From Woeseia sp. (lineage in GTDB: Bacteria; Pseudomonadota; Gammaproteobacteria; Steroidobacterales; Woeseiaceae): a stretch of DNA of 64,000 nucleotides. The stretch spans positions 1 through 64,000 of the forward strand of contig JAJFKW010000002.1 in assembly GCA_021773015.1 (NCBI GenBank), read 5' to 3'. The notes beneath the pieces were generated by a model. That model ran no database searches. It saw only the letters and a program-made list of their open reading frames with translations, and had not been told where the DNA came from. A program made the position numbers and the translations under genes. Shown here one piece after another: positions 15,429 through 37,346 of the stretch. The number at the start of each line of letters is the position of its first letter. Position 1 is the stretch's first letter.

Positions 15429-15461
15429 CGCTCCAAATAGTTGGGGTAGAGGCAATACATC

Positions 15462-16616: not shown

Positions 16617-16625
16617 GGTGACAGC

Positions 16626-16883
16626 ATGAAAGTCAGAAGCAAGTTGGCGGACATCGATTTTCGATTCGGAAGATTTGAATATAAGAAGGATCACTTGTTG
16701 ATTCACAGTCATCCCGATCAGTCGATGCAAAGCAAAGTATACGTCAGTCCGAACGACATACTTTCCGCGTTTGGCCGCGCTTTGGCAAACCCAATGGTCT
16801 GGGTTTACTTCTTGGGCTTCCCATTCTTTTTAATTCGCTACCGTCGCCGGCATGCAAAAAAACGTGCGCTTGAAAACGGTTAA
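16626..16883 (+). CDS. Small membrane protein, 85 residues
   Basis: A short basic protein beginning ten bases after the nitrilase stop, with GAGGTGACAGC as ribosome binding region. Residues 1-50 are polar. One hydrophobic segment (about 52-70, around MVWVYFLGFPFFL) is followed by a strongly basic tail RYRRRHAKKR, so the C-terminus is expected inside the cell. No family recognised. Its position suggests a membrane tether or accessory of the neighbouring enzymes. Confidence 0.65.
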   Translation: MKVRSKLADIDFRFGRFEYKKDHLLIHSHPDQSMQSKVYVSPNDILSAFGRALANPMVWVYFLGFPFFLIRYRRRHAKKRALENG

Positions 16884-16917
16884 TTTTACACATGTATATT
16901 ATTAATAGAGATTCTTT

Positions 16918-18561
16918 ATGGCCCAGTTGAGCGGCGCGCAGGCGATTATCAAATCGCTGCTTGTTAACGATGTCGATACTATTTTTGCTTTGCCAGGTGG
17001 CCAGCTGGATCACCTGTTCGATGCGATATATGGCGAAGGTGATCGCATACGCCTCATTAGTTCGCGGCACGAACAAGGTGTTGCGTATATGGCCTACGGC
17101 TATGCGAAGTCAACTGGCAAAGTTGGCACTTATGCGGTCGTTCCGGGCCCAGGCTTGCTGAATTCCACCGGGGCACTCTGTACTGCATGGGCGAACCATG
17201 CTCGCGTACTGTGCATATCGGGTCAGGTGCCGTCTACCTCGCTCGGCAAGGGTTACGGCGATCTACACGAAATTAAAGACCAGCTCGGACTCATTAGACA
17301 TCTTACAAAATGGGCGGAGCGTATTGATCGGCCGCAGGATGCGCCTGCAATCGTCGGCGAGGCGTTTCGACAATTGAGATCCGGTCGTCCGCGGCCGGTG
17401 GAAATCGAGATGCCCATGGACGTAATGGGGCAAAAACTCGAAGTCGAGTTGCAAGACTTTACTGTGGCGGATGAGAAGCCGAGCGTTGATCTCGATCTAA
17501 TCAAAGATGCTGCAACCATTCTAGGGTCGGCAAAGCGGCCAATGATCGTTGTCGGCTCGGGAGCTCAGGATGCCTGTGAAGAAGTACTGGCGATCGCCGA
17601 AGCTCTGCAGGCGCCGGTCATGGCGAAACGTAATGGCAAAGGCATTGTCGCCTCCGATCATTACTTAAGTGCAAACCTGCCGATGGGGCACCGGCTTTGG
17701 GCAGACGCCGACGCGGTGTTGGCCGTCGGCACACGTTTACGAATGCCATTGTGCATGTGGGGTAAGGACGATGATCTGAAGCTGGTGCGCGTCGACATCG
17801 ATCCAACCGAGGTCAGCAAGATTTGCGAGCCTGAGGCTGGAATTGTGGGCGATGCAGCTGATGTTCTGACGGCACTATCGCGTGAACTCGATGCAACAAA
17901 CGTTGCTCGAAGTTCTCGCAAGGACGAGTTGCAAACGTTAAAAGCCGAGATAGATGCAGATATACGGGCGACCGTCGCGCCGCAGATGGCCTATCTTGAG
18001 GTGATTCGCGAGGCACTACCCGACGACGGCATTTTCGTGGACGAGGTAACGCAAGTTGGCTTTACATCGTGGTACGGATTTCCCGTGAGTAAGCCGCGGC
18101 AACACATTACTGCGGGTTATCAGGGTACGTTGGGATATGGGTTTGCTACTGCCTTAGGTGTCGTTGCCGCGCACCCGGACAAAAAGGTAATTCAGATAAG
18201 CGGCGACGGTGGATTCATGTTCAATGTGCAGGAATTGGCTTCCGCCGTACAGTATCGCCTGCCCGTCACCACTATTATCTTTAACGACAAGCGCTTTACC
18301 AACGTTCAACGCCAACAGAAAGAGTGGTTCGGCGGACGGGTCATCGCATCTGATTTACACAATCCGGATTTCGTCAAGCTGGCAGAGAGCTTCGGTGCGT
18401 TGGGATTGCGCGTTGCTGATCCCAGCAGCTTGAAATCTGCAATTGCGACAGCGTTCGCACAAAATGGTCCGGCGATTATTGAGGTTACTGTCGATGAATT
18501 TTTCCCTGCCCCTTGGAAATTCATCATGATGCCGCAGACACGCGGTGGAGTGTGTAGTTGA
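16918..18561 (+). CDS. Thiamine pyrophosphate-dependent enzyme (acetolactate synthase/2-keto acid decarboxylase family)
   Basis: A 547-residue three-domain TPP enzyme. The catalytic Glu52 is in RHEQGVAYMAYGYA. The TPP-Mg site starts with GDGG at 429-432 and ends with FNDKRF about 26 residues later. The middle FAD/DHAP-like domain spans about 190-320. It lacks an acetolactate synthase small subunit partner and lies next to an aminotransferase and an aldehyde dehydrogenase. This context favours a decarboxylase that turns a 2-keto acid into an aldehyde, as in benzoylformate or indolepyruvate decarboxylases, though oxalyl-CoA- or sulfopyruvate-type activity is not excluded. Its stop is one base before the next start. 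Confidence 0.85.
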   Translation: MAQLSGAQAIIKSLLVNDVDTIFALPGGQLDHLFDAIYGEGDRIRLISSRHEQGVAYMAYGYAKSTGKVGTYAVVPGPGLLNSTGALCTAWANHARVLCISGQVPSTSLGKGYGDLHEIKDQLGLIRHLTKWAERIDRPQDAPAIVGEAFRQLRSGRPRPVEIEMPMDVMGQKLEVELQDFTVADEKPSVDLDLIKDAATILGSAKRPMIVVGSGAQDACEEVLAIAEALQAPVMAKRNGKGIVASDHYLSANLPMGHRLWADADAVLAVGTRLRMPLCMWGKDDDLKLVRVDIDPTEVSKICEPEAGIVGDAADVLTALSRELDATNVARSSRKDELQTLKAEIDADIRATVAPQMAYLEVIREALPDDGIFVDEVTQVGFTSWYGFPVSKPRQHITAGYQGTLGYGFATALGVVAAHPDKKVIQISGDGGFMFNVQELASAVQYRLPVTTIIFNDKRFTNVQRQQKEWFGGRVIASDLHNPDFVKLAESFGALGLRVADPSSLKSAIATAFAQNGPAIIEVTVDEFFPAPWKFIMMPQTRGGVCS

Positions 18562-18562
18562 T

Positions 18563-19684
18563 ATGAACGATCAAGCCGTTAAGAAACCGCTACCGCATGC
18601 TGGCGTCTTGAAGATCCAGCCGTATACGCAAGGCGCGAGCGAAGTACCGGGCATACAGGACCCGATCAAGCTGTCGTCCAACGAATCATCGTTCGGCCCC
18701 AGTCCGCAGGCGCTGGAAGCGTACGCTGCGGCCGCTGGTATGCTGCATCGCTATCCCGACGGCGCGCAGACGGCACTGCGCAATGCCATCGCAGAAACGT
18801 ACGCACTGCAAGCTTCAAATATCGTCTGTGGCAACGGCTCTGATGAGCTTATTCAATTGGTCACACGAGCATTTGTCAGCGCAGGCGACGAAGTGCTGAT
18901 GAGTGAAAATTGTTTCCTCATGTGCCGTATACATGCACTGGCGCAGGACGCAACAGTGGTGGTTGCACCGGAACAAGACGATCTCGTTGATGTTGACGCT
19001 TTGCTTGCAAGGGTGACCGATAAAACTCGGCTGTTGACCCTCGCAAACCCTAATAATCCAACCGGCACGTATATCGATGGCGATGCTATTCGGCGCTTGC
19101 ATGCGGCATTGCCGAATCATGTCATTCTGTTATTGGATGGGGCATATGCAGAATATGTGACAGCTGATGACTATGATGCTGGCGCGGACTATGTGCTAAA
19201 CAGCGACAATGTCGTAATGACGCGCACGTTCTCAAAAATCTATGGCTTGTCATCGCTGCGCATAGGTTGGGCATATATGCCTGATGCAATACTCGATGCC
19301 GTACAGAGAATTCGCACCCCATTTAATGCCAATGGGCCGGCAATGGATACCGCCACTGCTGCCGTCGCGGACACCGTCTACATTGAAAAAATACGCGACA
19401 ATAACGCGTATTGGTTACAGGAAATTCGTCAACGCCTCACAGCGCTCGGTCTGTATGTCATTCCAAGTGTGACCAATTTCTATCTGATCCGATTTCCAGA
19501 CAAGTGTGGTACAACGGCGCTACGCGCTGCGAAATACTTGGAGGGTGCGGGAATTATTCCGCGACCCGTCGGTGGCGAAGACGACGCCGAGTTGCGCATA
19601 ACGGTTGGATCAGATGATGAGAACGCCGCAGTATTGTCCGCGTTCGAAGGGCTAATGAAACAGCAGGTTTCTAAGACCGGCTAG
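18563..19684 (+). CDS. PLP aminotransferase, class I/II, HisC-like
   Basis: A 373-residue fold-type I aminotransferase. It shows SSNESSFGPSP near the N-terminus, the NPNNPTG loop (about 158-164), the PLP lysine at about 225 in TFSKIYGLSSLRIG, and a C-terminal Arg in LRITVG for the carboxylate. The pattern is that of histidinol-phosphate and aromatic aminotransferases. No histidine biosynthesis genes surround it, so a catabolic role (amino acid to 2-keto acid) feeding the TPP enzyme is more likely. ATG 18563 is one base after the TPP gene stop; a GTG six codons upstream is the alternative. Confidence 0.87.
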   Translation: MNDQAVKKPLPHAGVLKIQPYTQGASEVPGIQDPIKLSSNESSFGPSPQALEAYAAAAGMLHRYPDGAQTALRNAIAETYALQASNIVCGNGSDELIQLVTRAFVSAGDEVLMSENCFLMCRIHALAQDATVVVAPEQDDLVDVDALLARVTDKTRLLTLANPNNPTGTYIDGDAIRRLHAALPNHVILLLDGAYAEYVTADDYDAGADYVLNSDNVVMTRTFSKIYGLSSLRIGWAYMPDAILDAVQRIRTPFNANGPAMDTATAAVADTVYIEKIRDNNAYWLQEIRQRLTALGLYVIPSVTNFYLIRFPDKCGTTALRAAKYLEGAGIIPRPVGGEDDAELRITVGSDDENAAVLSAFEGLMKQQVSKTG

Positions 19685-19694
19685 GATTGCATTG

Positions 19695-21188
19695 ATGGCA
19701 AACACATACAGACCAAGCGAGTCCGTTGCATCTCGGCTGGCAAAGCCGCAGCCGCTATTGGTCGACGGTATTTTTCGCCATGCCGGGGATTCTGCTACAA
19801 GTGATGTGTTCGATCCTTCCTCCGGAAATGTCATAACGACAGCCGCTTCGGCGACCGAAGCGGACACGCTCGAAGCAATTGCGGCTGCCCGTCGCACATT
19901 CGACGCTGGCGACTGGACCGGTTTAACGCCAGCACAGCGCGGCAAAATTCTCTGGCGAGTCGGCGATCTGATCGAAGACAATGCAGACGAAATCGCAGAA
20001 CTGGAAATGTTAGATGCCGGTAAATCCTTCGCGTCGGCACGACAAGGTGAAATTCCATTTGCGGCGGATTGTTTTCGCTATTACGCGGGTTGGTGCACCA
20101 AGATTGAGGGGGCAACGAAGGACCTTTCGATAGTGCCCGACCAGGATTTTCATATCTACACGCGACGCGAGCCTGTCGGCGTCGCGGCACTGATCGTGCC
20201 TTGGAATGGTCCGTTGGTGCAGGCGTCTTGGAAACTCGCACCCGCCCTTGCCGCGGGTTGTAGCTGTATTTTGAAACCGGCTAGCCAAACGCCGCTGTCT
20301 GCAATACGCCTAGGCGAGCTTTGCATCGAAGCCGGGGTGCCGAAAGGCGTTGTGAATATCGTGCTGGGCGGTGGCGCATCGGTGGGAAACTTGTTGGCGC
20401 GACACGATGATGTCGACAAACTCTCGTTCACGGGATCGACGCAAACGGGTCGCAGTATCATCGATGCGGCCAAGGGCAACCTGAAGAAGTTAACGTTGGA
20501 GCTTGGCGGTAAATCTCCTGTCATCGTTTTCGCGGACGCCGATATCGATGCTGCTATCGAGGGTGCGGCGCAGGCGATTTTTTCGAATGCGGGTCAAGTT
20601 TGCGTCGCGGGTTCCAGGCTGTATGTAGAGGCTGCGGTCTACGAAAAAGTTGTCAGTGGCGTCGCGGCAATCGCCAGCAAGATGAACGTAGGCGCGGCAA
20701 CAGAAGAAGGTCACGATATGGGGCCGTTAATTTCCAGTGAACACCTGGACTCGGTTTGCAAGCTCATCGACGCGGGAAAGCAAGAAGGCGCGAGAATCGT
20801 CGCCGGCGGAGAAAAAACGGGATCGTCGAATGGCTACTTTCTGCAGCCAACTGTTTTTGCCGATACTGATCATACGATGCAGATCGTTCGCGAGGAGATA
20901 TTCGGGCCCGTTTTGGTCGCAATGAAGTTTGCCGGGGATGCCGATATTTCCGCGTTAGCCAATGATAGCGATTTCGGGCTCGCAGCCAGCATTTGGACTC
21001 GCGATGTCGGCAAAGCACATCGTACGGCAGCCGCGATTCGCGCAGGTCTCGTGTGGGTGAATTGCCACGGCATTCCGGATATGGCGATCCCGTTCGGTGG
21101 TTACAAACAGTCCGGTTGGGGCAGAGAGAATGGGCAGGAAGCGTTACTGCAATATACGGAGTTGAAATCGGTGGTCGTAAAACTATGA
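19695..21188 (+). CDS. NAD(P)-dependent aldehyde dehydrogenase
   Basis: A 497-residue aldehyde dehydrogenase. It has PWNGPL near the cofactor pocket, FTGSTQTG for the nicotinamide loop, the general base Glu269 in LELGGKSP, the nucleophile Cys303 in NAGQVCVAGSR, and the C-terminal PFGGYKQSG. It would oxidise the aldehyde made by the TPP decarboxylase to an acid. ATG 19695 is preferred over the in-frame TTG 19692; AGGA lies eight bases upstream. The stop overlaps the next start (ATGA). Confidence 0.92.
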   Translation: MANTYRPSESVASRLAKPQPLLVDGIFRHAGDSATSDVFDPSSGNVITTAASATEADTLEAIAAARRTFDAGDWTGLTPAQRGKILWRVGDLIEDNADEIAELEMLDAGKSFASARQGEIPFAADCFRYYAGWCTKIEGATKDLSIVPDQDFHIYTRREPVGVAALIVPWNGPLVQASWKLAPALAAGCSCILKPASQTPLSAIRLGELCIEAGVPKGVVNIVLGGGASVGNLLARHDDVDKLSFTGSTQTGRSIIDAAKGNLKKLTLELGGKSPVIVFADADIDAAIEGAAQAIFSNAGQVCVAGSRLYVEAAVYEKVVSGVAAIASKMNVGAATEEGHDMGPLISSEHLDSVCKLIDAGKQEGARIVAGGEKTGSSNGYFLQPTVFADTDHTMQIVREEIFGPVLVAMKFAGDADISALANDSDFGLAASIWTRDVGKAHRTAAAIRAGLVWVNCHGIPDMAIPFGGYKQSGWGRENGQEALLQYTELKSVVVKL

Positions 21189-22429
21189 ACAGAAAACGCA
21201 GGCTCAATCAAACGATTCAATTCCTGATTTTTATCACTCTGCTGGCCTGGCTCGCGTCGACCGCTCACGCGCAACGCGAAGATGTCACATTTTTGGTGAT
21301 CGGTAAGCATGCGAACTTCGCGCAGCAAGCAGATGGCGAGCTACAGCCGGTCGATTATTCGTTTTTCTCTGAAATTTTCTTTACCGATAATGGCGACGCA
21401 GAGAATGCGTTCTTGAGCATGCCAACCGGAGAACGTCTTAAATTTCGCGACCAGCGCGTGGCGCCAGCACCGGACACGGATAATTTGCTGCTGATTTCTG
21501 GTGCAAAGCGATTCGTAAGCTACGAGGAGTTGCTGTCGTGGTATCCGGATGGTGCTTACAACATCACATTCGACTCACCCAGCGGATCGGTAGACAGTGG
21601 CGCGTTGAGTTTTCCGCAGAACGGGTTGCCAAATGCACCTCTTATCACTTTACGGCAAGCCGGCAAGATGCTGTGCGGCATCGTTGATCCCGCTAAAGAC
21701 GTACAGGTGTCCTGGAGCGAATTCGAACAAGGGAGTGCCGACCAAAACGGCATACTAGACGACTTAATTTTCGTAATTTTGGAGGACGCGTCTGGCGAGC
21801 GCGTCTCACACAGTGGCAGGCCGTTCGAAGGCAAGCCGTTTCTCACGTATGCCGATAAAAAACACGACATAGCGGCTGCCGCTATGAGTGACGGGCAGGA
21901 ATATACACTGAGTGTTGAGCACGCAATTCTCACCGACACCAAAAGATTGGATGGTGTTCCTGCGATGACGACGTACGCGGTTACATCAAAACTCAAATTC
22001 GAAACACGTACGGATTCGAACACCAATTGCGGCACACGCGAAGATTCGAAAGGCACCAGTATGAGCCCCAGCACCGATGCACAAGTTGTTATGTTCTATT
22101 ACAAAGATTTGGCCGACGTCGATCGTTTCTATGGCGAGGCGCTTGGCCTGAACAAAACACTGGACGACGACTGGGTAAAATTCTATGCGACAAGCCCGAC
22201 GAGTACGGTCGGATTGGTGAAGGAGAGTGAGGGTGCCTGGCACGATGTTCGAGAGAAAAATTCAGTAATGTTGAGCATCGTTACAGCCGAGGTAGACGCT
22301 TGGTATAACAAACTAAAGAGAGATAAATCAATCGTATTCCTCAAGGAAATAGGAGACGGCGGTCCAATTCGTAGTTTCCTGATCGAAGATCCCGGCGGTT
22401 ACACCGTCGAATTCTTTCAGTGGCTGTGA
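21185..22429 (+). CDS. Exported protein with C-terminal VOC domain
   Basis: A 414-residue protein starting at ATG 21185, which overlaps the aldehyde dehydrogenase stop. A signal peptide covers residues 1-29 (ending THA-Q). Residues 30-295 form an unrecognised domain with several aromatic and Asp/Gly-rich stretches. Residues 297-414 form a vicinal oxygen chelate domain (VVMFYYKDLADVDRFYGEAL to EDPGGYTVEFFQWL). VOC enzymes are normally cytoplasmic, so an exported one fused to a novel domain is unusual. It closes the catabolic operon and may bind or convert the substrate in the periplasm. The track-length upstream frame overlaps the dehydrogenase and is not used. Confidence 0.75.
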   Translation: MNRKRRLNQTIQFLIFITLLAWLASTAHAQREDVTFLVIGKHANFAQQADGELQPVDYSFFSEIFFTDNGDAENAFLSMPTGERLKFRDQRVAPAPDTDNLLLISGAKRFVSYEELLSWYPDGAYNITFDSPSGSVDSGALSFPQNGLPNAPLITLRQAGKMLCGIVDPAKDVQVSWSEFEQGSADQNGILDDLIFVILEDASGERVSHSGRPFEGKPFLTYADKKHDIAAAAMSDGQEYTLSVEHAILTDTKRLDGVPAMTTYAVTSKLKFETRTDSNTNCGTREDSKGTSMSPSTDAQVVMFYYKDLADVDRFYGEALGLNKTLDDDWVKFYATSPTSTVGLVKESEGAWHDVREKNSVMLSIVTAEVDAWYNKLKRDKSIVFLKEIGDGGPIRSFLIEDPGGYTVEFFQWL

Positions 22430-22506
22430 GGTTGCGATAACGCAAGACAGATTTAGTGGGCGCAAATAATTCCAATAACAAGCTTGTTGACTAAAGATTG
22501 AGACAT

Positions 22507-23001
22507 ATGGCGGATAAAAATCTTTTTGAAGCAGCAGCCAACGAACTGCCGACCGAAGATTACCGGATGCGAGCCTGGCTTGCGCTGGTTGGCTGTTTTA
22601 CCAATATTGAGCGGTTGCTGCGACGAAGATTCAGCAAGGCCTTCAGGGCAGGGCTGCCGCGCTACGATACGTTGACTGCGCTTGGGCAGAACCCGGACGG
22701 ACTTACCATGAGTGAGTTGGCCTCGATGTTGATGGTGTCGAAAGGCAATATCACCGGTGTGGTCCGCCGGCTGCAAGAAAAGCGTTGCGTACGTCAGGTT
22801 AAGTCGCGAAAAGACGGTCGCGTGCAAGTGGTGACCCTAACGCGCAAGGGAAAAGAGCTTTGGCAGCAAATGCACCAGGAATATCGTGACGTGGTAGGCG
22901 AGGTGTTGCTCGGCTTGACGAAATCCGAATCGAGTTCGCTGACCAAAAGTTTGCTAACTGTACAAGAGAAAATTGAGATGGCTGGGCAACCCAAAGGGTG
23001 A
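22507..23001 (+). CDS. MarR family transcriptional regulator
   Basis: A 164-residue winged-helix regulator. The recognition region is LTMSELASMLMVSKGNITGVVRRL, followed by the wing KSRKDGRVQVVTLTRKG and the C-terminal dimerisation helices. MarR proteins usually repress and are released by phenolic or carboxylate ligands. The gene lies between the catabolic operon and a TonB receptor, and identical palindromes occur ahead of both, which makes it the natural candidate to bind them. The start is ATG 22507; a TTG three codons upstream is possible. Confidence 0.88.
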   Translation: MADKNLFEAAANELPTEDYRMRAWLALVGCFTNIERLLRRRFSKAFRAGLPRYDTLTALGQNPDGLTMSELASMLMVSKGNITGVVRRLQEKRCVRQVKSRKDGRVQVVTLTRKGKELWQQMHQEYRDVVGEVLLGLTKSESSSLTKSLLTVQEKIEMAGQPKG

Positions 23002-23182: not shown

Positions 23183-25621
23183 ATGAAACGAATACTCATT
23201 GCTGCAATTGCCTTGGCTACGATGGCTTCAACGCCGTTGCTCGCGCAGGAATTGGAAGAAATTATTGTAACGGCACAGCGTCGTGAACAAAGTCTACAAG
23301 ACGTCCCTGTTGCCGTTACCGCATTTAGCGGTCAAGCAATCGAACGTCAAAATATCAAAAGTGCAACGGATTACCTGATGCTGACGCCAAACGTTAGCTA
23401 TACGGAAGACGGGCAATTTGGTAAGCGAAGTGCGGGTATCGCAGTTCGCGGCGTCAATAACCTGGTGTCCGGCGAGAATGCCGCGGTTCCTTCCATTGGC
23501 GTTTATCTCGATGAATTTAGTGTTGCATCGGTTCCCAATCAATTTGCGAATCCGCAATTGCCGGATATGCAGCGAATTGAAGTGCTGCGTGGTCCACAGG
23601 GTACGTTCTTCGGACGCAATGCAGTGGGCGGCGCGCTGAACCTAACCAGCAGAAATCCTACGGATGAATTGTCAGGCAAGATAACTGTTGGCGCAGAAAC
23701 CTATGATGATGCGGGTGACCAGTTCAGCATTACAGGCGTGCTAAACGCGCCAGCTTCGGATGTTTTCAAATTTCGCGGTGTCGTGCACTACGAAGATAAC
23801 AGTGGCCAAGTTGAAAATATTTGTGCTGAAGGTGCCACCGCTGCAACCTGTCCGGTGGCGTTCGCCAACGGCTTTACGCCCAACGGCGCCGCAGACAGCG
23901 GGCACGAATACATCAGTGTGCGTTTGAAAGGACTTTGGGACATATCTGACGATACGACTTTGTTGACAACGGTTGTGTACGGCAAGGAAGAGCAAGGCCA
24001 TGACGAAAACGTACCGTCCGGTATTACAGATCTTGACACTGTTGATACGTTGGGAATTTCAGGCCCCATCGATCCAGGTACAGGGTTCTGGCCAAACAAT
24101 CGCAATCAAGTAAGTCATGATCTTCCGGAACGCAACGATACCGACACCATCATTGGTATCGTCAATCTGACGCATTCGTTTAGCGATAGTCTTACCTTGA
24201 AATGGATTACCGGCGTCATCGATTCGGAGTTTGAAAGATTGTTCGAACAAGACTTGATCGGCGGTCTGGATGCATTGGGGCGCTCTAACACTTATTCGGG
24301 TACGTCGGCGAGCACGGAACTTCGGCTTGAGAGTAGCAGTGACAGTCTCGATTGGATTGCGGGCGTCATGATTTCAAACGACGATCAAGATCAAGAAAAC
24401 AAAGTCTTCGTATCCAGCTCACCGACGGATTCCATTGGTGGCGTCGGCTTCCTGCCGCCATTTCCGGAAGGTCTCGGGCTTGCTTTCAACACCAAGAGTT
24501 TTGAAATTGAGGGTATCGCAGTCTTCGGAGATCTGACATTTCATGTCAACGATCAGCTCGATCTAATTGTTGGCGGCCGTTATAGCCATGACGAGGTAAC
24601 AACAGATTTGCAGGGCTTCGGTACAGCGCCGACTTGTGTATGCCCTAATGGCCCAGGCGACGCGGAGTTTTTCCCAAGCTTTGTGAATGTTCCGAGAACT
24701 GCCGCCAGCGGCAAAGAGTCTTTCGATGACATTTCGCCACGCTTGGGTTTCCGTTATCAAGTCAACGATGATGTGGGTATCTACGGTATGGCTTCGAAGG
24801 GCTACAAGGCGGGCGGAACAAGTACAGGCAACTTCAATGCGGATCCGATTGAGATAGCCTACGGCGACGAAACGCTGTTGAATTATGAATTTGGTGTCAA
24901 GTCAGAGTTGATGGATAATCGATTGCGCATCAACGCGGCCGTTTTTCACCTGATTTGGGATGACATGCAATTCGAATCGTTCAGGTTTCTCATTCCGGGT
25001 GATCTGACATCAAATTTTGAACAAACTATCAACATTGCGGAAGCGACCGCGACGGGGGCAGAGGTTGAATTTCAGGCGGTGCTGACGGATAACTTTATTT
25101 TGAGCGGCGCCATTGGTGTTTTGGATACAGAGATCGATGACCCACAGTTGATCGAAATTACGGGCGGCTTCAACGTGTCGCTTGACGGTTTGGATATTCC
25201 GAAAGCGCCCGATCTATCTTGGAATCTGGCGGGCGAATATCATTGGCCAGCGGGCGACAACGATGCCTGGATACGAATTGAGTTCGTGCATCGCGATGGC
25301 CAATACTCTGACATCGAAGGGCTGACTAATTTGCAGACGCGTGAACGATTGCCGAATACGATAGACCCAAATGTACCGGATTCCGGTTTGGAGCGCCCTG
25401 TCGGACCGAATGAGTTTCCGTTCCTAAGCCCGGATTTTGACGTCGTCAATCTTCGCGGTGGCTGGGAAGCCGACAAATGGGGCTTCCAGGTTTATGTTCA
25501 GAATCTGGCGGATGAGGAATATTACACCGGTACGCAAGAGAACTTTGGTGCGAGTGGTATTCGCCTACGGCCGCACCCGAGAATCATCGGTGCAAACGTA
25601 AATTTCAACTTCGGCGAATAA
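23183..25621 (+). CDS. TonB-dependent outer membrane receptor
   Basis: An 812-residue receptor. A signal peptide covers about residues 1-21. The TonB box region is EEIIVTAQRREQSLQDVPVA. The plug domain (about 40-160) includes VEVLRGPQGT-like IEVLRGPQGTFFGRNAVGGA. The barrel ends in an aromatic-rich strand with terminal VNFNFGE. The sequence style is that of the large receptor family found next to catabolic genes for aromatics, lignin fragments or terpenoids, not siderophore loci. A strong GGGGGAAGGA precedes the ATG, and a terminator follows. It probably imports the substrate of the upstream operon across the outer membrane. Confidence 0.93.
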   Translation: MKRILIAAIALATMASTPLLAQELEEIIVTAQRREQSLQDVPVAVTAFSGQAIERQNIKSATDYLMLTPNVSYTEDGQFGKRSAGIAVRGVNNLVSGENAAVPSIGVYLDEFSVASVPNQFANPQLPDMQRIEVLRGPQGTFFGRNAVGGALNLTSRNPTDELSGKITVGAETYDDAGDQFSITGVLNAPASDVFKFRGVVHYEDNSGQVENICAEGATAATCPVAFANGFTPNGAADSGHEYISVRLKGLWDISDDTTLLTTVVYGKEEQGHDENVPSGITDLDTVDTLGISGPIDPGTGFWPNNRNQVSHDLPERNDTDTIIGIVNLTHSFSDSLTLKWITGVIDSEFERLFEQDLIGGLDALGRSNTYSGTSASTELRLESSSDSLDWIAGVMISNDDQDQENKVFVSSSPTDSIGGVGFLPPFPEGLGLAFNTKSFEIEGIAVFGDLTFHVNDQLDLIVGGRYSHDEVTTDLQGFGTAPTCVCPNGPGDAEFFPSFVNVPRTAASGKESFDDISPRLGFRYQVNDDVGIYGMASKGYKAGGTSTGNFNADPIEIAYGDETLLNYEFGVKSELMDNRLRINAAVFHLIWDDMQFESFRFLIPGDLTSNFEQTINIAEATATGAEVEFQAVLTDNFILSGAIGVLDTEIDDPQLIEITGGFNVSLDGLDIPKAPDLSWNLAGEYHWPAGDNDAWIRIEFVHRDGQYSDIEGLTNLQTRERLPNTIDPNVPDSGLERPVGPNEFPFLSPDFDVVNLRGGWEADKWGFQVYVQNLADEEYYTGTQENFGASGIRLRPHPRIIGANVNFNFGE

Positions 25622-25760: not shown

Positions 25761-26117
25761 CTACTCGATCCAAAACTCCCGTTCCTGGTCTTTCCAAAAC
25801 TCGACCTTCATGCGATGGTGAATAAACACACCCTTGTAGTAGGGGTCGTTTTCTTTGTACTCCTTATACGGTCCTTCGTAATCCTTGCGGCGGGTTTTGT
25901 ACGCCTCATAGGCCGCGAGATTCTCGTATTCCCACATGATCAAATGCCGCCCAGACTCTTCTCCGGCGACGTATTTGTTGAAGTACCGCAAGCTCTTCCA
26001 CTCTTTAAACAGGTCGCGATGGTCGTGTACCCATTTGATCCAGCGCCGCAATTCTTCGTCGTGCTCTTTTTGCTTGCCCTCGGCAACCAACCAAGTTTCA
26101 ACTTCAAATACAGACAT
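25761..26117 (-). CDS. NIPSNAP/dimeric alpha-beta barrel-like protein
   Basis: A 118-residue soluble protein, very rich in charged and aromatic residues. Its pattern FEVETWLVAEGKQKEHDEEL, then LIMWEYENLAAYEAY, is that of small dimeric ferredoxin-like (NIPSNAP or antibiotic monooxygenase-like) proteins. Its ATG shares one base with the stop of the preceding Tat-signal gene (TAATG), so the two are coupled. GGGGGAC precedes the start. Function unknown; it has no signal peptide of its own. Confidence 0.65.
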   Translation of the reverse strand: MSVFEVETWLVAEGKQKEHDEELRRWIKWVHDHRDLFKEWKSLRYFNKYVAGEESGRHLIMWEYENLAAYEAYKTRRKDYEGPYKEYKENDPYYKGVFIHHRMKVEFWKDQEREFWIE

Positions 26118-26374
26118 TATAACGTCCCCCTATCATTCGCCGGTTTCGATAGCTCGCCCGCATGACGTATTAATCGTTCCGCTTCCGAGTCGATACCCAC
26201 TTTACCGCTGCCATTACCACTATCAATTGGCGCGGTTCGCACTTCTGCTTGAGCGCCAATCGCAACAGCAGTCGTACCGGCAACAGTCGCCTGTAGAAAT
26301 CGACGTCGCGTTTGCATGTTTTGCGGCGAGTCATTTGCGGCATCGATGTCCGAGTTCATAGTTCGCTTATTCAT
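26117..26374 (-). CDS. Small Tat-signal protein
   Basis: An 85-residue protein whose residues 20-43 form a twin-arginine signal (TRRRFLQATVAG, then a hydrophobic stretch ending GAQA). Only about 40 residues would remain after cleavage, with SEAERLIRHAGELSKP as the only structured-looking part. A later ATG (codon 6) is an alternative start. Short Tat-signal proteins of this size often accompany redox enzymes or are small subunits, but no redox enzyme is next to it here. Coupled by TAATG to the next gene. Confidence 0.6.
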   Translation of the reverse strand: MNKRTMNSDIDAANDSPQNMQTRRRFLQATVAGTTAVAIGAQAEVRTAPIDSGNGSGKVGIDSEAERLIRHAGELSKPANDRGTL

Positions 26375-32035: not shown

Positions 32036-33211
32036 TTGAAATCCAGGACAGAAGCATTCGATCGTTGGATCAGGGGTACGTTTGTCGAGCTCAATACAGA
32101 GCTTGAGGAAACCTATTTCGCCCAGGACGACAAAGCTGCGGTAACCGGCGTTGGAGCGGATCTGAAAGCTGCACTGGTCGAATCGGGCCGCGAGTATATT
32201 GAAGCACTTCTGGAGGAAGGCAATACCGACCAGGGCTTCGAAAAAGGCTTTGATCTGCTTGGAAATGTGGGCTTGTATATGGCCTCTTGCCGAAGACATG
32301 ACATCACGGAGCCCTCACGCGAGAAAACTTCACCACTAATTGAGGCATCAGCGTTGGCGATGCAATTGGGCGCGTCGCTGGGTGTCACACCTAGATTCGC
32401 GACCAGTCACCTCTCCACGCATAACCGCGCAATTAACGGCTCGTACAAGTGCTTCACTTCGCTGGAAGCGGAGCGAATTTTTCTCGAATACAACACCCGC
32501 GGCATATTGGCATACAAACGGGCTGCGGATGCATTGGTTAGGATTTTGCCCCTTGGCGTAACCCATCCCGTTGCCTATGACTTGCTCGCGGCCGCCAAGG
32601 ACGCCTTGCAAGAAGTGTTGCGGCACAACGCCGATTTGTTCCAGTTGCTCGATGTTGATCGGTTTTTTTACTGTGTCAGACCCTATTACAAGCCGTTTCG
32701 CGTCGGCAAGGACGAGTATCGCGGTGCTAATGCGGGCGATTTCGCCGGGATCAATGAGATCGATTTATTGCTCGGGCTCTGCAAAGCGGACAACCCATCG
32801 TATTCGCAATTACTGGTCGACAAATTTTTATACATGATGCCGGCAGATCAGGAGCGTCTGCGCGATAGCATGCGACGTCGCAGTCTGTTGCGAGAATTCA
32901 TTGAGCTGCTTGATTCGAACGCCGACAGTAGTTGTTTTAGAAACAATGTAGCAATGTTCTTGGAAGTTTGCGACGCCCACGGCGAAACGGCGAAGCAACA
33001 CCATGATCAATTGGTCAGCCGGTTTATCGAAGCGCCATCAAGTAATCTTGCCGATCAGCATTTGCAAAATATTACGGCGAGCGGACCGCCACTAAATATT
33101 CTGTTGCAGTCGCTCGAAAAATTACGCGATCTGCGGATGGCAGCGGTACGAGACGACATCCCGAGCAGTTATCGTGAAATTCAACGACTTCGCGACAGCG
33201 CCAGGAATTAG
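32036..33211 (+). CDS. PrnB/DUF1864 family protein (indoleamine 2,3-dioxygenase-like)
   Basis: A 391-residue, mainly helical protein. The segment FYCVRPYYKPFRVG-x-x-x-Y-R-G-A-N (about 215-240) lines up with the pyrrolnitrin enzyme PrnB. A later His (about 315, in DAHGE) falls where PrnB has its haem ligand, and SGPPLNILLQ near 355 matches the C-terminal glycine loop. PrnB is a haem protein of the IDO/TDO superfamily that rearranges 7-chlorotryptophan. The start is TTG 32036, since a stop lies six codons upstream and no ATG precedes it. Together with the decarboxylase and Fe-S genes downstream it suggests aromatic amino acid chemistry. The substrate is unknown. Confidence 0.7.
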   Translation: MKSRTEAFDRWIRGTFVELNTELEETYFAQDDKAAVTGVGADLKAALVESGREYIEALLEEGNTDQGFEKGFDLLGNVGLYMASCRRHDITEPSREKTSPLIEASALAMQLGASLGVTPRFATSHLSTHNRAINGSYKCFTSLEAERIFLEYNTRGILAYKRAADALVRILPLGVTHPVAYDLLAAAKDALQEVLRHNADLFQLLDVDRFFYCVRPYYKPFRVGKDEYRGANAGDFAGINEIDLLLGLCKADNPSYSQLLVDKFLYMMPADQERLRDSMRRRSLLREFIELLDSNADSSCFRNNVAMFLEVCDAHGETAKQHHDQLVSRFIEAPSSNLADQHLQNITASGPPLNILLQSLEKLRDLRMAAVRDDIPSSYREIQRLRDSARN

Positions 33212-33304
33212 TGCCTCAAGTTAACGTTGGCGATTTTCGTACTTCCTATGACACGCAGAATTAAGTTGTGATTCTGCCGATCTTAAACGGCAACAAGCGA
33301 GTAA

Positions 33305-34750
33305 ATGGAACATCAAACAAAACTAAACGAGCTGCAGCGCATTGCATCTGCACTCGAATCAGATGCTGAATCACGGGCGGCTGGCTTGCAAACGGCAGCA
33401 GTGCATGCAGAAAATTTCCTCAAGGCACTGCCGGACCGACCGGTATACGTCGCCCCTGGCGATCGCAACGAGGCACTGAACGCATTCGCACTAAGCGAAG
33501 AACCGGGTGAACTTGATGATGCAATGGAGATCTTGGACAAGTACGTCGAAGGCGTCGGTCACAACTTAGGTTCGGGTCGTTTTTTTGCGTATATCCCAAG
33601 TGGCGGACTCTATGAGGCGGCGCTTGCGGACTACCTGGCTGCAGTCAGTAATCGTTATGCGGGTGTCGGCTACGCGGCGCCGGGCGCCACCAGGATGGAA
33701 GAGTCGTTGTTGCGATGGTTGTCTGACGTCGTTGGTTACCCCAAGACTTCTGAAGGCGATTTAACCTCCGGTGGCAGCATGGCGGCACTGTCGGCAATCG
33801 TTGCCGCGCGCGAGGCATTTCAAATCCGTAGTCGCGATGTTGAAAAGGCAGTCGTCTACTTAACCTCTCAGACGCATCATACGTTTAGCAAAGCATTGCA
33901 TATCACAGGATTGGGCGAATGTGTTATGCGTTACGTGTCGGTCGACGATGGGCACCGTATGCGTGCCGACGCGTTAAGCGAGCAAATCGAAAGCGATTTG
34001 CAAGACGGGCTAAAGCCGTGGTTTGTTGCAGCGTCTGCTGGCACAACAGATCTCGGGGCTGTAGATCCGTTAAACGATATTGCCGATGTTGCCGAATCGT
34101 TCAAGCTATGGTTTCACGTAGATGCGGCATACGGTGGCGCATTTGCGTTATGCGACGAGGGCAAGAAACGCTTGAGTGGCCTGGAGCGCTCAGACTCGCT
34201 GATTCTCGATCCGCACAAGGGGTTCTTTTTGCCTTGTGGTACCGGTGTGGTGCTGGTGCGGGACGGCAAAAAACTATTCGATGCATATCATGCGCGAGGC
34301 AGCTACATGCAGGATATGGCACATGACACAGAGCGTTCGCCATGCGATCTGTCGCCCGAATTGACGCGTCCTTTTCGTGCGCTTCGTTTTTGGTTGCCAT
34401 TCAAGAAACTCGGAACGCGTCCATTCGTGGCAGCATTAGAGGAAAAGCTGCTGCTCGCGGATTATTTTTACCAGCAGATTGTGCGAATCCCCGGCGTTGA
34501 AGTCGGGCCGCCACCGGATTTATCGATCGTCACTTTTCGTTATGTCCCGCAAAATGGTGCAGTCGACGAGTTTAACCGGCGGCTCGTCGATGCCATTCGC
34601 GACGATGGACGGGTGTTTCTTACATCGACGACAATGTCCGGAAAATTCGTTATTCGGATGGCAGTGCTAAACTATAGATCGCACCTTGCGGATATCGACA
34701 TGGCGTTGCAGGTAATCAACGAAAAAATTAGCGAAATTAACGGTTCATAA
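33305..34750 (+). CDS. PLP-dependent decarboxylase, aromatic amino acid type (group II)
   Basis: A 481-residue fold-type I decarboxylase. It shows HNLGSGRFFAYIPSGG near 80, SGGSMAAL (about 156), the cofactor Asp in FHVDAAYGG, and the PLP lysine at about 305 in LILDPHKGFF. This family decarboxylates tryptophan, tyrosine, DOPA or glutamate; the HVDAAYGG and DPHK setting is that of aromatic-L-amino-acid and tyrosine decarboxylases, but substrate cannot be fixed. It follows the PrnB-like gene by 93 bases and precedes the Fe-S protein by four. Confidence 0.88.
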   Translation: MEHQTKLNELQRIASALESDAESRAAGLQTAAVHAENFLKALPDRPVYVAPGDRNEALNAFALSEEPGELDDAMEILDKYVEGVGHNLGSGRFFAYIPSGGLYEAALADYLAAVSNRYAGVGYAAPGATRMEESLLRWLSDVVGYPKTSEGDLTSGGSMAALSAIVAAREAFQIRSRDVEKAVVYLTSQTHHTFSKALHITGLGECVMRYVSVDDGHRMRADALSEQIESDLQDGLKPWFVAASAGTTDLGAVDPLNDIADVAESFKLWFHVDAAYGGAFALCDEGKKRLSGLERSDSLILDPHKGFFLPCGTGVVLVRDGKKLFDAYHARGSYMQDMAHDTERSPCDLSPELTRPFRALRFWLPFKKLGTRPFVAALEEKLLLADYFYQQIVRIPGVEVGPPPDLSIVTFRYVPQNGAVDEFNRRLVDAIRDDGRVFLTSTTMSGKFVIRMAVLNYRSHLADIDMALQVINEKISEINGS

Positions 34751-34754
34751 CACG

Positions 34755-35744
34755 TTGCCAAAGAAAACTAAAAACTTCGAACCAATGTCTGAGTTCACGG
34801 ACTGCTTTCCGGAGATATCGGGCAATACGGTCAATGGTCTCGGCGAATCGAACCCCCGCAAGCCTAGCCCGTTTTTCTGGCACCCGCCACATCGGCAAAC
34901 ACACGGTAAATTGCAAAAGAAAGTTACCGACTATCATCGACAGTCACCCGCCATACGCGAAGAATTTTCACCGACTCCACCCGGTGGCAGAGGACCGAAA
35001 ACGATAGAGCAGTCACCGGAGGTTGTCGATAAAGATGCGGCAGAATGGTCAGATATCGTCAAGCATTTTGCATTGAGTAACGAAAGCGATCTCGTTGGTA
35101 TCACTGCAATGGATCCGCTGTACGTGTACGAGGGTTATGAAGTGAACGAGCCCTGGGTCATAACTATTGGCGTGACCATGGATTACGAGGAACTTTCACA
35201 AGCGCCTCCGAGCTTCGACAATCCCGCCACCGCAGTGGTCGTCGCCAAAGAATATAATCGTGCAGCACGTGCCTGCCGCTATCTCGCGAATTACATTTTG
35301 TCGCAAGGTTACTACGCGAAGGCTTACCAGGGTCCATACGCGAGTGCGCTGAATATGCTTCCCGCAGCGCTGGCGTCCGGTTTCGGTGAACTCGGTAAAC
35401 ACGGTTCGATTATCAATCGTACTTACGGTTCGAGCATTCGCCTGTCCGCCGTCACCACGGATATGCCGCTCATCGCAGACCAGCAGGACGAATTTGGTGC
35501 AGACGATTACTGCACTCGCTGCAAAGCGTGCAGCAATGCCTGTCCGCCCGGCGCAATTGCGGATGAAAAACAGCTCGTTCGGGGTGAGATGAAATGGTAC
35601 GTCGATTTCGACAAGTGCATTCCTTACTTTGGCGAGGCATTGGGCTGCGCGATTTGTTTATCGCGATGTCCATGGTCCAGGCCGGGCAATGCCACGAATA
35701 TTCTCAAGAGTTTGGCCAAACGGAACGCAAAAAAGCACGATTGA
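34755..35744 (+). CDS. Double [4Fe-4S] protein related to reductive dehalogenases/QueG
   Basis: A 329-residue protein from TTG 34755 (ATG 34785 is the alternative). The middle (about 105-245) contains GFGELGKHGSIINRTYGSS and VTTDMPL, the pattern that precedes the clusters in reductive dehalogenases and epoxyqueuosine reductase and contributes to cobalamin binding there. Eight cluster cysteines follow: C253-x2-C256-x2-C259-x3-C263-P and C288, C298, C301, C305-P. There is no Tat signal and no tRNA-modification neighbour, so it is neither a respiratory dehalogenase nor an obvious QueG. A cytoplasmic corrinoid-dependent reductase is the best inference. The N-terminal 95 residues are not recognised. 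Confidence 0.72.
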   Translation: MPKKTKNFEPMSEFTDCFPEISGNTVNGLGESNPRKPSPFFWHPPHRQTHGKLQKKVTDYHRQSPAIREEFSPTPPGGRGPKTIEQSPEVVDKDAAEWSDIVKHFALSNESDLVGITAMDPLYVYEGYEVNEPWVITIGVTMDYEELSQAPPSFDNPATAVVVAKEYNRAARACRYLANYILSQGYYAKAYQGPYASALNMLPAALASGFGELGKHGSIINRTYGSSIRLSAVTTDMPLIADQQDEFGADDYCTRCKACSNACPPGAIADEKQLVRGEMKWYVDFDKCIPYFGEALGCAICLSRCPWSRPGNATNILKSLAKRNAKKHD

Positions 35745-35960
35745 GGACGTCAGCTGATACAGCGCGGTAATGCAATCATGAGTGACAATTAGCGACAACG
35801 AAGCGGATCAGCTATGGTTAGCAGCGTCAATGCTGGTTATCCATTGCGGCCGAGAATAAATGGCGAAGGATAGAGCCGACAATACTGCACTTAATCACAA
35901 GCTCACGTAGCCGCGCTCCCCAAGGTAACAACAAAAACAAGAACTATTGGAGATAAGTAC

Positions 35961-37346
35961 ATGGCAGGGTCACAAAACGCAGAATTTAAACACGAGAAGT
36001 GGTCTTCGGAATCGGTGTTTTTACTTGCTGCGATTGGCGGCGCTGTCGGTCTTGGCAATCTCTGGCGCTTTCCGTTTCTTGCTGGCGAGAACGGTGGAGG
36101 TGCATTCGTACTTCTGTATATCGCATTCGTGGTTATCATATGTTTGCCGCTGGTTATGGCGGAACTTGCGATGGGTCGACGCGGCGGCGGCAGCGCTATC
36201 GCCACAATGCGCAATCTTATTTCTGAATCCAGCGCATCCTCGAAATGGCGCGTTGTCGGCTGGCTAAGCATTCTGGTGCCTTTGGTGGCGCTGGGCTACT
36301 ACAGCGTCGTCGCTGGATGGTCAATTGACTATATTCGTATGGCCGCGATGGGCGAATTCTCCGGCCAATCCGGCCAGGACGCTGCGCAGGCATTCGGCTT
36401 GCTTGCAGAGTCACCCATGCGAGTTTTGTCGTTGCACGCATTATTCATAGTTGGCGCCATCGTTGTTGTCGCGCGAGGGTTGGGCAAAGGCATAGAAGTC
36501 ATCATGCGAATCATGATGCCGGCACTGTTCTTGTTGATGATTGTCCTTGCGCTGTATTCCATATTTCAGACGGATATTGCGGCTGGAATGAGGTTCATGT
36601 TCGAACCGGACTTCAGCAAGATCACGTTCGAAGTTGTTTTGGCCGCGCTGGGGCAGGCTTTTTTCTCAATCGCTGTAGGCGTTGGAATGTTGATGACTTA
36701 CGGGGCGTATCTTCCTAAAGATATCTCAATTGGACGTGCTGCAGTTTGGATCATTGGTGCCGATACGTTCGTTGCAATACTGGCCGGCATCGTCATTTTT
36801 CCTATCGTGTTCGCCAACAACTTAGATCCAGGCGAAGGGCCTGGCTTGATCTTCGTTACTTTGCCAATTGCGTTCGGTCAAATGACCGGTGGCTATGTCA
36901 TCGGAATACTGTTCTTCGTAATGCTGTTTTTTGCTGCATTTTCTACTGTGATCGGCATGCTTGAACCGGTCGTTTGCTGGCTGACCGAGCGTAAAGGCGC
37001 GTCGCGAACAAAAGTGACCTTCATTGCTGCAGGCGCAGGCTGGTTGATCGGACTGTCGGCGGCGTTGTCCTTTAACGTGTGGAGCGATGTGCGCTTATTT
37101 GAGTCCGTAAAACTTCTGGCTGACAAGAGTATTTTTGACATCATTGACTTTTTTGTTGCAAGTCTAGCAATTCCGTTCAACGCGGCTTTGTTGTCATTGT
37201 TTGCTGGATGGAAAATGTCGCGAAGTGCATTACTCGATGAGATCGGCATAGAAAACCAATCGATTGCGAGCTACATTCGATTCATTCTGCGGTTTGTCGC
37301 CCCGGCGGTCATTCTTATCATATTTGTGAGTGCGTTTTTTAGCTAA
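35961..37346 (+). CDS. Sodium-dependent amino acid transporter (NSS/SNF family)
   Basis: A 461-residue inner-membrane symporter with about eleven to twelve helices. The first helix has the NSS signature GGAVGLGNLWRFPFLAGENGGGAF (residues about 26-49), which forms the Na+ and substrate site; the unwound TM6 region and SSF/SNF-like AFSTVIGMLEP follow. Bacterial members such as TnaT and LeuT import tryptophan, leucine or other amino acids. It follows the PrnB-like/decarboxylase/Fe-S genes by 216 bases and could supply their amino acid. TGGAGATAAG precedes the ATG. Confidence 0.9.
   Translation: MAGSQNAEFKHEKWSSESVFLLAAIGGAVGLGNLWRFPFLAGENGGGAFVLLYIAFVVIICLPLVMAELAMGRRGGGSAIATMRNLISESSASSKWRVVGWLSILVPLVALGYYSVVAGWSIDYIRMAAMGEFSGQSGQDAAQAFGLLAESPMRVLSLHALFIVGAIVVVARGLGKGIEVIMRIMMPALFLLMIVLALYSIFQTDIAAGMRFMFEPDFSKITFEVVLAALGQAFFSIAVGVGMLMTYGAYLPKDISIGRAAVWIIGADTFVAILAGIVIFPIVFANNLDPGEGPGLIFVTLPIAFGQMTGGYVIGILFFVMLFFAAFSTVIGMLEPVVCWLTERKGASRTKVTFIAAGAGWLIGLSAALSFNVWSDVRLFESVKLLADKSIFDIIDFFVASLAIPFNAALLSLFAGWKMSRSALLDEIGIENQSIASYIRFILRFVAPAVILIIFVSAFFS

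Follow-up and report, generated by a model that had tools for sequence, protein, structure and literature searches.

The 64,000-nt stretch of DNA analysed here (the window) lies on contig C2 (JAJFKW010000002.1) of a Woeseia sp. genome of 4.84 Mb that is 98.9% complete, and at positions 32036-37346 it carries four genes whose families suggest the metabolism of an aromatic amino acid. The first gene (P0001; 32036-33211; 391 aa, TTG start) encodes an SO4414-type protein of the PF08933 family with the haem-oxygenase-like fold of PrnB and IDO, and the second (P0002; 33305-34750; 481 aa) a group II amino acid decarboxylase dependent on pyridoxal 5'-phosphate (PLP) that belongs to PF00282 and has 4obu as its nearest solved relative. 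The third (P0003; 34755-35744; 329 aa, TTG start) encodes, as judged from its fold and residues, a minimal protein of the reductive dehalogenase (RDase) fold with two 4Fe-4S motifs, and the fourth (P0004; 35961-37346; 461 aa) a sodium:neurotransmitter-type (NSS) amino acid symporter of PF00209. All four open reading frames (ORFs) were found open on the plus strand, in agreement with the initial annotation, which had described four co-directional genes and had assigned them to these same families. The genes are separated by gaps of 93, 4, and 216 bp. A scan of the stretch returned five promoter-like sites, as compared to 6.2 in shuffled sequences, and nine terminator-like sites, as compared to 7.8; neither was enriched, and the scan thus speaks neither for nor against a single transcript.

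P0001 scored 592 bits against PF08933 (PrnB/DUF1864; cut-off 27). Its closest solved relatives, at 57-58% identity, were 1zee and 2nwb, both of which represent SO4414 of Shewanella oneidensis, and the title of the 2nwb entry describes a putative 2,3-dioxygenase in complex with ferric haem. A structure model of P0001 (predicted local distance difference test, pLDDT, of 80.3) matched 2nwb and 1zee with Z-scores of 36.7 and 34.2, PrnB with 20.3-21.2, and IDO1/IDO2 with 18.6-19.6 (295-318 residues), and it has the fold that is common to IDO and TDO. PrnB proper is not a close relative: its identity to P0001 in the structural alignment was 14-17%, and its E-values were 2.3e-7 (sequence) and 4e-9 (family profile), compared with about 1e-163 and 1e-192 for SO4414. 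Eight residues (F210, F211, R215, Q321, H322, T347, S349, and G350) were invariant in 19/19 homologues, and H323 was kept in 18 of them. In a weak alignment (E 0.1), H323 falls on the IDO1 histidine that we take to be its haem ligand, and R215 is presumably the counterpart of the substrate-binding arginine of IDO1. A homologue from a Marinicaulis metagenome-assembled genome (L017) has a glutamine at the position of H323 and retains His322; judging from this sequence, either His322 would be the haem ligand or the L017 protein would differ from the others. No reaction of SO4414 was found in the open-licence literature among the matches listed. In the available portions of PMC3184988 and PMC3059290, 2nwb and 1zee appear only as a holo/apo pair, and the words Shewanella, 1ZEE, and 2NWB are absent from the main text of the PrnB paper PMC11791213.

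A scan with Pfam and NCBIfam models detected 4Fe-4S domains in P0003. Its score against the RDase model TIGR02486 was 94.4 bits, below the cut-off of 160.35, and two homologues likewise fell below. The structure model of P0003 (pLDDT 89.7) has the RDase fold, matching RDases with Z-scores of 23.5-25.2 across residues 29-325 (264-286 aligned); QueG was matched with a Z-score of about 14, across residues 94-312 only. Identification of P0003 as QueG was rejected on the basis of this partial coverage of the fold and a score of 52.3 bits against TIGR00276, whose cut-off is 200; a QueG-like ORF is presumably encoded elsewhere in the genome. The eight cysteines of the two 4Fe-4S motifs, Y167, and R229 were invariant in 14/14 homologues. 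In HMMER alignments with residues counted by hand, Y167 falls on Y426 of NpRdhA, R229 on K488, and F292 on R552; F292 was also invariant (14/14), so that R552 of NpRdhA is not kept in this family. Y426, K488, and R552 are named as key residues of NpRdhA in the available part of PMC10463259, and PceA has a conserved Tyr246 and Arg305 at its pocket according to the part of PMC5500849 that was available. To judge by its fold, P0003 would bind cobalamin. A paralogue with 43% identity occurs in the same genome (C1:1748508), as does a 1073-aa protein that reaches 194 bits against TIGR02486 (cut-off 160) and has a Fer2 domain and a reductase-like C-terminus (G000:C1:2107001-2127000; L106 8395-11616). 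A TonB-receptor-like gene lies ~3 kb from the gene of the 1073-aa protein.

P0002 is a member of the group II PLP decarboxylases (189 bits against PF00282; cut-off 27). Its best match in the PDB was 4obu (215 bits), which we take to be a bacterial tryptophan decarboxylase, followed by tyrosine and tryptophan decarboxylases (192 and 174 bits). Because entries for aromatic-L-amino-acid decarboxylases (126-167 bits) and glutamate decarboxylases (136-142 bits) overlapped in score, glutamate is a possible substrate as well, and no NCBIfam equivalog scored above its cut-off. P0002 keeps, in the alignments with its PDB matches, one histidine and a loop tyrosine at positions that, we assume, separate decarboxylases from aldehyde synthases. 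A kynuramine route is a possibility for this enzyme, and among the matches listed from the open-licence literature none supported it. P0004 scored 163 bits against PF00209 (SNF; cut-off 27) and 110 bits against NF037979 (cut-off 50), which places it among the NSS symporters; its best PDB match (284 bits) was 4us3, presumably MhsT, a carrier of bulky hydrophobic amino acids including tryptophan. Homologues of P0002 are paired with an NSS symporter in three other genomes (G067, G050, and G009). A DUF885 protein was also seen close to the P0002 homologues of one family and, in a different family, close to those of P0001 (L096 2601-4622, L094, L093, L086, and L088; only the L096 copy was included in the Pfam run).

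Conservation of the gene combination was examined in 119 related genomes, including the Woeseia genome itself (G000), and in 369 genomes sampled across the class. Among the relatives, P0001 was present in nine genomes, P0002 in 28 (E <= 1e-60), and full-length-type P0003 in 24 (E <= 1e-49; three of these, G004, G014, and G019, are partial matches and one, G028, has an internal stop). All three occurred together only in G000 and in G005, a member of another genus. A single 10-kb contig of G005 (C32; locus L070) carries, in one direction, genes for an aldehyde dehydrogenase (ALDH), a MarR-type regulator, P0001, P0002, a GNAT acetyltransferase, P0003, and a TonB-dependent receptor. The order and direction of P0001, P0002, and P0003 are thus kept at 73, 58, and 76% identity, respectively, and every gene of this contig except that for GNAT had a match in the window at 54-76% identity. 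The window orthologues of the flanking genes are situated 6-12 kb upstream of the quartet and on the plus strand. They consist of the ALDH gene (19692-21188; PF00171, 571 bits; 75.5% identical over 421 aa to its G005 counterpart, which lies near P0001), the MarR gene (22498-23001; PF12802; 54% identity to the gene adjoining P0001), and the TonB receptor gene (23183-25621; PF00593/PF07715; 66% identity over 818 aa to the gene adjoining P0003). The ~6 kb between the receptor group and P0001 holds genes for MscL, an M48 peptidase, and a DUF898 protein, among others. The G005 orthologue of P0004 (63% identity) is found on a different contig. In the 20 PF08933 loci of other named genomes, several of which end at contig edges, neither P0002 nor P0003 occurred in any, and a P0004-like gene occurred in two.

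Most loci of P0001 homologues share a partner that the quartet lacks. A gene for a class-V PLP protein related to kynureninase (KYNU2) was detected by tblastn in 19 of 29 distinct P0001 loci, within ~120 bp of P0001 in 17 of the 19; one of these 17 copies is incomplete and sits at the end of its contig (L005). These 29 loci exclude L084 and L087, whose contigs, being equal in length to those of L003 and L006, were taken to be identical with them, and they include close relatives (e.g., four Endozoicomonas-type and six HTCC2207-type loci). The tblastn search was used for these counts in place of ORF maps, which drop overlapping frames and miss P0003 of L078 and L119 and P0001 of L006, L087, and L088. 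KYNU2 was lacking at L002, L007, L016, L017, L018, L019, L021, L070, L082, and the window; the contig ends right after P0001 at L016 and 2.4 kb past it at L002, and KYNU2 is encoded elsewhere in the genomes of G000, G005, and G044. A further protein, in which CDGSH iron-sulphur motifs are fused to a cupin region (CDGSH-cupin), was observed in linkage with KYNU2 (L105 10458-11549, L083 3989-5095, and L127 11215-12543). G027 has the order symporter, KYNU2, CDGSH-cupin, P0001, and contig C66 of G005 holds the first three of these together. A Novosphingobium plasmid, from an alphaproteobacterium, carries P0001, CDGSH-cupin, a partial TonB-receptor match, KYNU2, and an NSS symporter within 10 kb; the plasmid collection as a whole yielded one P0001 and no P0003. 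In the Woeseia genome, KYNU2 and a CDGSH-cupin gene reside on contig C1. Against PF22580, a C-terminal model with a cut-off of 27, KYNU2 of L009 and L083 scored above (35.7 and 28.8) and the Woeseia copy just below (26.5). This genome also encodes a canonical kynureninase and has no recognisable TDO. P0001 likewise occurs without TDO in G005, G027, G047, and G055, and together with it in G044, G073, G088, and G101.

P0003 has partners of a different kind. Of the 21 P0003-type loci viewed (the window, L070-L081, L089, L112, and L119-L124), five (in G038, G044, G036, G017, and G041) are clusters that resemble the 2-aminobenzoyl-CoA pathway of anthranilate degradation. In these, P0003 is surrounded by genes for an enoyl-CoA hydratase (PRK08258, above cut-off), an acyl-CoA dehydrogenase, RidA, CoA ligases, OYE, indolepyruvate oxidoreductase-like subunits, or a PF04199 cyclase, and in three of the five (G038, G044, and G017) a PRK08255-like oxygenase is encoded on the same stretch as P0003. 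A cluster of this type is present in the Woeseia genome at C4:252-272 kb, and the MarR protein of the window is 38-39% identical to those of the clusters of G000 and G017. One contig of G044 carries an NSS symporter, KYNU2, the hydratase, the acyl-CoA dehydrogenase, the PRK08255-like oxygenase, and P0003, and so ties the partners of P0001 to those of P0003. P0003 is also found near the PF04199 cyclase in L120 and L121 and between HPPD and an NSS symporter in G008; no labelled partner was seen in other loci, such as L071, L122, and L123. The full-length oxygenase (at least 983 bits) occurred in 20/119 relatives, and P0003 was present in 11 of these 20 vs. 13 of the 99 genomes without it (p = 1.3e-4 in a Fisher test, which, like all such tests here, ignores relatedness). 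In the class-wide sample (oxygenase at E <= 1e-200, in 17/369 genomes), P0003 was found in the Woeseia genome and three others, all four with the oxygenase; with the Woeseia genome removed, the counts were 3/3 vs. 13/365 (p = 6.8e-5), two of the three belonging to one genus. For P0003 homologues of at least 47% identity, a threshold chosen after seeing the data, the association was 8/9 (p = 1.3e-6). P0001 was associated with the oxygenase in 4/9 vs. 16/110 relatives (p = 0.04) and in 1/3 vs. 15/365 genomes class-wide (p = 0.13), and one of the 29 P0001 loci (L019) lies 4-9 kb from anthranilate-type hydratase, oxygenase, and cyclase genes.

From these linkages we tentatively propose, with rather less than even confidence, that the quartet is a fragment of a dispersed catabolic gene set through which tryptophan or a close analogue, perhaps coming from peptides, is taken up and broken down toward anthranilate. 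The TonB receptor and P0004 would import the amino acid. P0001 would open the indole ring, acting as a haem oxygenase with the IDO/TDO fold; the genome itself has no recognisable TDO. Enzymes of the cyclase/formamidase and kynureninase types, encoded elsewhere, could then yield anthranilate, which the cluster on contig C4 would degrade as 2-aminobenzoyl-CoA. P0002 may decarboxylate an aromatic amino acid or intermediate in a side branch that proceeds through an amine, with ALDH taking the derived aldehyde, and P0003 might act as a cytosolic minimal cobalamin/4Fe-4S reductase in an optional step, perhaps halogen removal or the reduction of an oxygenated intermediate. The initial annotation had suggested that the locus makes or breaks down a compound derived from an aromatic amino acid. 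A metabolic unit tied to such an amino acid is still probable; of the two halves of the suggestion, breakdown is the better supported, since the nearest solved relative of P0001 is SO4414 rather than PrnB and since the kynureninase-like, uptake, and anthranilate-type neighbours found elsewhere point to catabolism. Pyrrolnitrin-like synthesis was accordingly rejected as the principal explanation. The remark that no described pathway has this combination of genes agreed with the open-licence literature, in which none was found among the matches listed.

A number of observations weigh against this proposal. The initial annotation had named the lack of conserved co-occurrence as an outcome that would refute its own suggestion, and the combination of PF08933 with RdhA-like and decarboxylase genes was indeed rare (2/119 relatives, including the Woeseia genome itself). 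No pair of the three genes was enriched genome-wide among the relatives, whether P0001 and P0003 (3/9 vs. 21/110, p = 0.38), P0001 and P0002 (3/9, p = 0.44), or P0002 and P0003 (p = 1.0). Class-wide, P0001 and P0003, each present in four genomes, shared the Woeseia genome only, and the full quartet was found in the window alone among the genomes searched. We also considered P0001 as a replacement for TDO and dropped the idea: TDO was present in 4/9 of the 119 genomes with P0001 vs. 79/110 without, which is not significant (p = 0.13). The alphaproteobacterial P0001 loci of Marinicaulis (L007 and L017) and Sulfitobacter (L021) are without KYNU2. The Woeseia KYNU2 scored only 93 bits against the kynureninase model TIGR01814 (cut-off 246), and in an alignment with the canonical kynureninase of the same genome, KYNU2 lacks the tyrosine that precedes the PLP lysine and the Asp-x-x-His motif. 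Such changes matter for kynureninase function; given these residues and the low score, kynurenine would be only a presumptive substrate of KYNU2. The clusters around P0003 are assigned only presumptively to the aerobic 2-aminobenzoyl-CoA route of anthranilate, and the NCBIfam model for the oxygenase, NF006101, is named salicylyl-CoA 5-hydroxylase. The full-length oxygenase of the Woeseia genome scored 1016 bits against this model, below its cut-off of 1078, which was exceeded in 5/119 relatives and 12/369 class-wide genomes. Finally, 13 of the 24 genomes with P0003 are without the oxygenase. The modest confidence that we place in the proposal reflects the lack of genome-wide pair enrichment and the sub-threshold oxygenase.

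We also weighed whether P0003 could be a true catabolic RDase that acts on halogenated kynurenine or anthranilate, with the remaining enzymes degrading the dehalogenated ring of a halogenated (e.g., bromo-) tryptophan. Halogen removal by P0003 is possible in view of its fold, which covers nearly the whole protein, its two 4Fe-4S motifs, and the invariant residues at the Tyr and Lys/Arg positions. The presence of P0003 in just 11 of the 20 oxygenase genomes would fit a side activity, and the 1073-aa protein shows that an RDase-like enzyme above the TIGR02486 cut-off is encoded in the same genome. Marine aerobic RDases debrominate phenols, as described in the available portions of PMC13101508 and PMC10463259; the characterised catabolic RDases in the latter, however, act on ortho-halogenated phenols. 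Moreover, P0003 is well below the RDase cut-off, a phenylalanine takes the place of NpRdhA R552, the last of the three key residues, throughout the P0003 family, no redox partner was recognised among the four genes, and there is no sign of a halogen in the sequence. On balance, we regard this route as unlikely. Quite improbable is its most elaborate form, namely an aerobic pathway dedicated to natural halogenated tryptophans, in which the SO4414 type, as a third kind of haem oxygenase able to open tryptophan, would feed the 2-aminobenzoyl-CoA route and a minimal, single-domain, cytosolic RDase would strip the halogen from a halo-anthranilate branch.

A second explanation holds that P0001 is not a dioxygenase and converts an aromatic amino acid by a different haem-based reaction, such as a PrnB-like rearrangement or a mono-oxygenation, the unusual product of which would be processed by KYNU2, CDGSH-cupin, and the decarboxylase. 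Membership of P0001 in the same Pfam family as PrnB is in keeping with this idea, as are the linked CDGSH-cupin protein, which has no assigned role, and the altered signature residues of a KYNU2 that coexists with a canonical kynureninase. The low identity to PrnB and the close relationship to SO4414 argue the other way, and the neighbours annotated so far look catabolic, although only part of them have been annotated and no search was aimed at halogenase or assembly-line genes. We therefore consider this explanation doubtful. That the decarboxylase, symporter, and reductase genes lie beside an IDO-like gene by chance, with no common pathway, would agree with the absence of pair enrichment, the occurrence of P0002 with a symporter and without P0001 in three genomes, and the gaps of 93 and 216 bp, but it appears improbable given that the order P0001-P0002-P0003 is held in another genus at 58-76% identity, along with the ALDH, MarR, and TonB receptor orthologues.

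Several other genes near the ALDH and TonB receptor genes of the window were observed. Positions 13845-19684 carry, all on the plus strand, genes for a flavin adenine dinucleotide (FAD) amine-oxidase-like protein, a nitrilase-type hydrolase, a thiamine diphosphate (ThDP) enzyme (PRK08266, above cut-off), and a HisC-like aminotransferase, which lead into the ALDH gene at 19692 and possibly form a further amino acid degradation unit. The ThDP enzyme (16918-18561) was tried as a partner of P0003 on account of an apparent link to P0003 homologues in G002 and G012, and was dropped as the identity was just 26%. Between the ALDH and MarR genes, positions 20993-22429 encode a protein that looks secreted and has a glyoxalase (VOC) domain at its C-terminus; the gene may start at the ATG at 21185, which overlaps the stop codon of the ALDH gene. 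Beside the TonB receptor gene, on the minus strand (25761-26374), are genes for a 118-aa protein without a Pfam or NCBIfam match and for a small protein in which a Tat-like signal was recognised by eye.

The structure of SO4414 has been solved since 2005, and no reaction assigned to it was found among the open-licence matches listed. The recurrent partners of PF08933 proteins, i.e., KYNU2 and, in some lineages, CDGSH-cupin, an NSS symporter, and a TonB receptor, which also occur together in one alphaproteobacterium, allow a role as a tryptophan oxygenase to be tested directly. At 329 aa, the RDase-fold family of P0003 falls short of the solved RDases in length and is statistically tied to a CoA-dependent aromatic oxygenase. 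If its members dehalogenate, they would provide a small enzyme for halo-aromatics; if they do not, they would represent a new reaction of the RDase fold in aerobic aromatic degradation.

Among known systems, SO4414 (1zee and 2nwb) has a fold in common with P0001 (Z 34-37) at 57-58% identity. IDO1/IDO2 and PrnB are alike in fold (Z about 19 and 21, respectively) but only 12-17% identical, and the substrate of P0001 is a prediction. P0003 has its fold and two 4Fe-4S motifs in common with NpRdhA, JtRdhA, and PceA, and its Y167 and R229 fall on Y426 and K488 of NpRdhA. It differs from them in length (329 aa, with one cobalamin-type domain, whereas solved RDase chains have 464-725 aa) and, with regard to NpRdhA, in having F292 in place of R552. 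The self-sufficient RDases covered in the available part of PMC10463259 carry a fused reductase, which P0003 lacks, and, unlike catabolic RDases, P0003 lies beside anthranilate-type genes. QueG has the cobalamin/4Fe-4S part of the fold in common with P0003 (Z about 14), but P0003 scores far below the QueG cut-off. As in the aerobic 2-aminobenzoyl-CoA pathway, the clusters linked to P0003 encode a PRK08255-like oxygenase, CoA ligases, an enoyl-CoA hydratase, and RidA; they differ from that pathway in the addition of an RDase-like gene and in an oxygenase whose model bears the name of salicylyl-CoA 5-hydroxylase.

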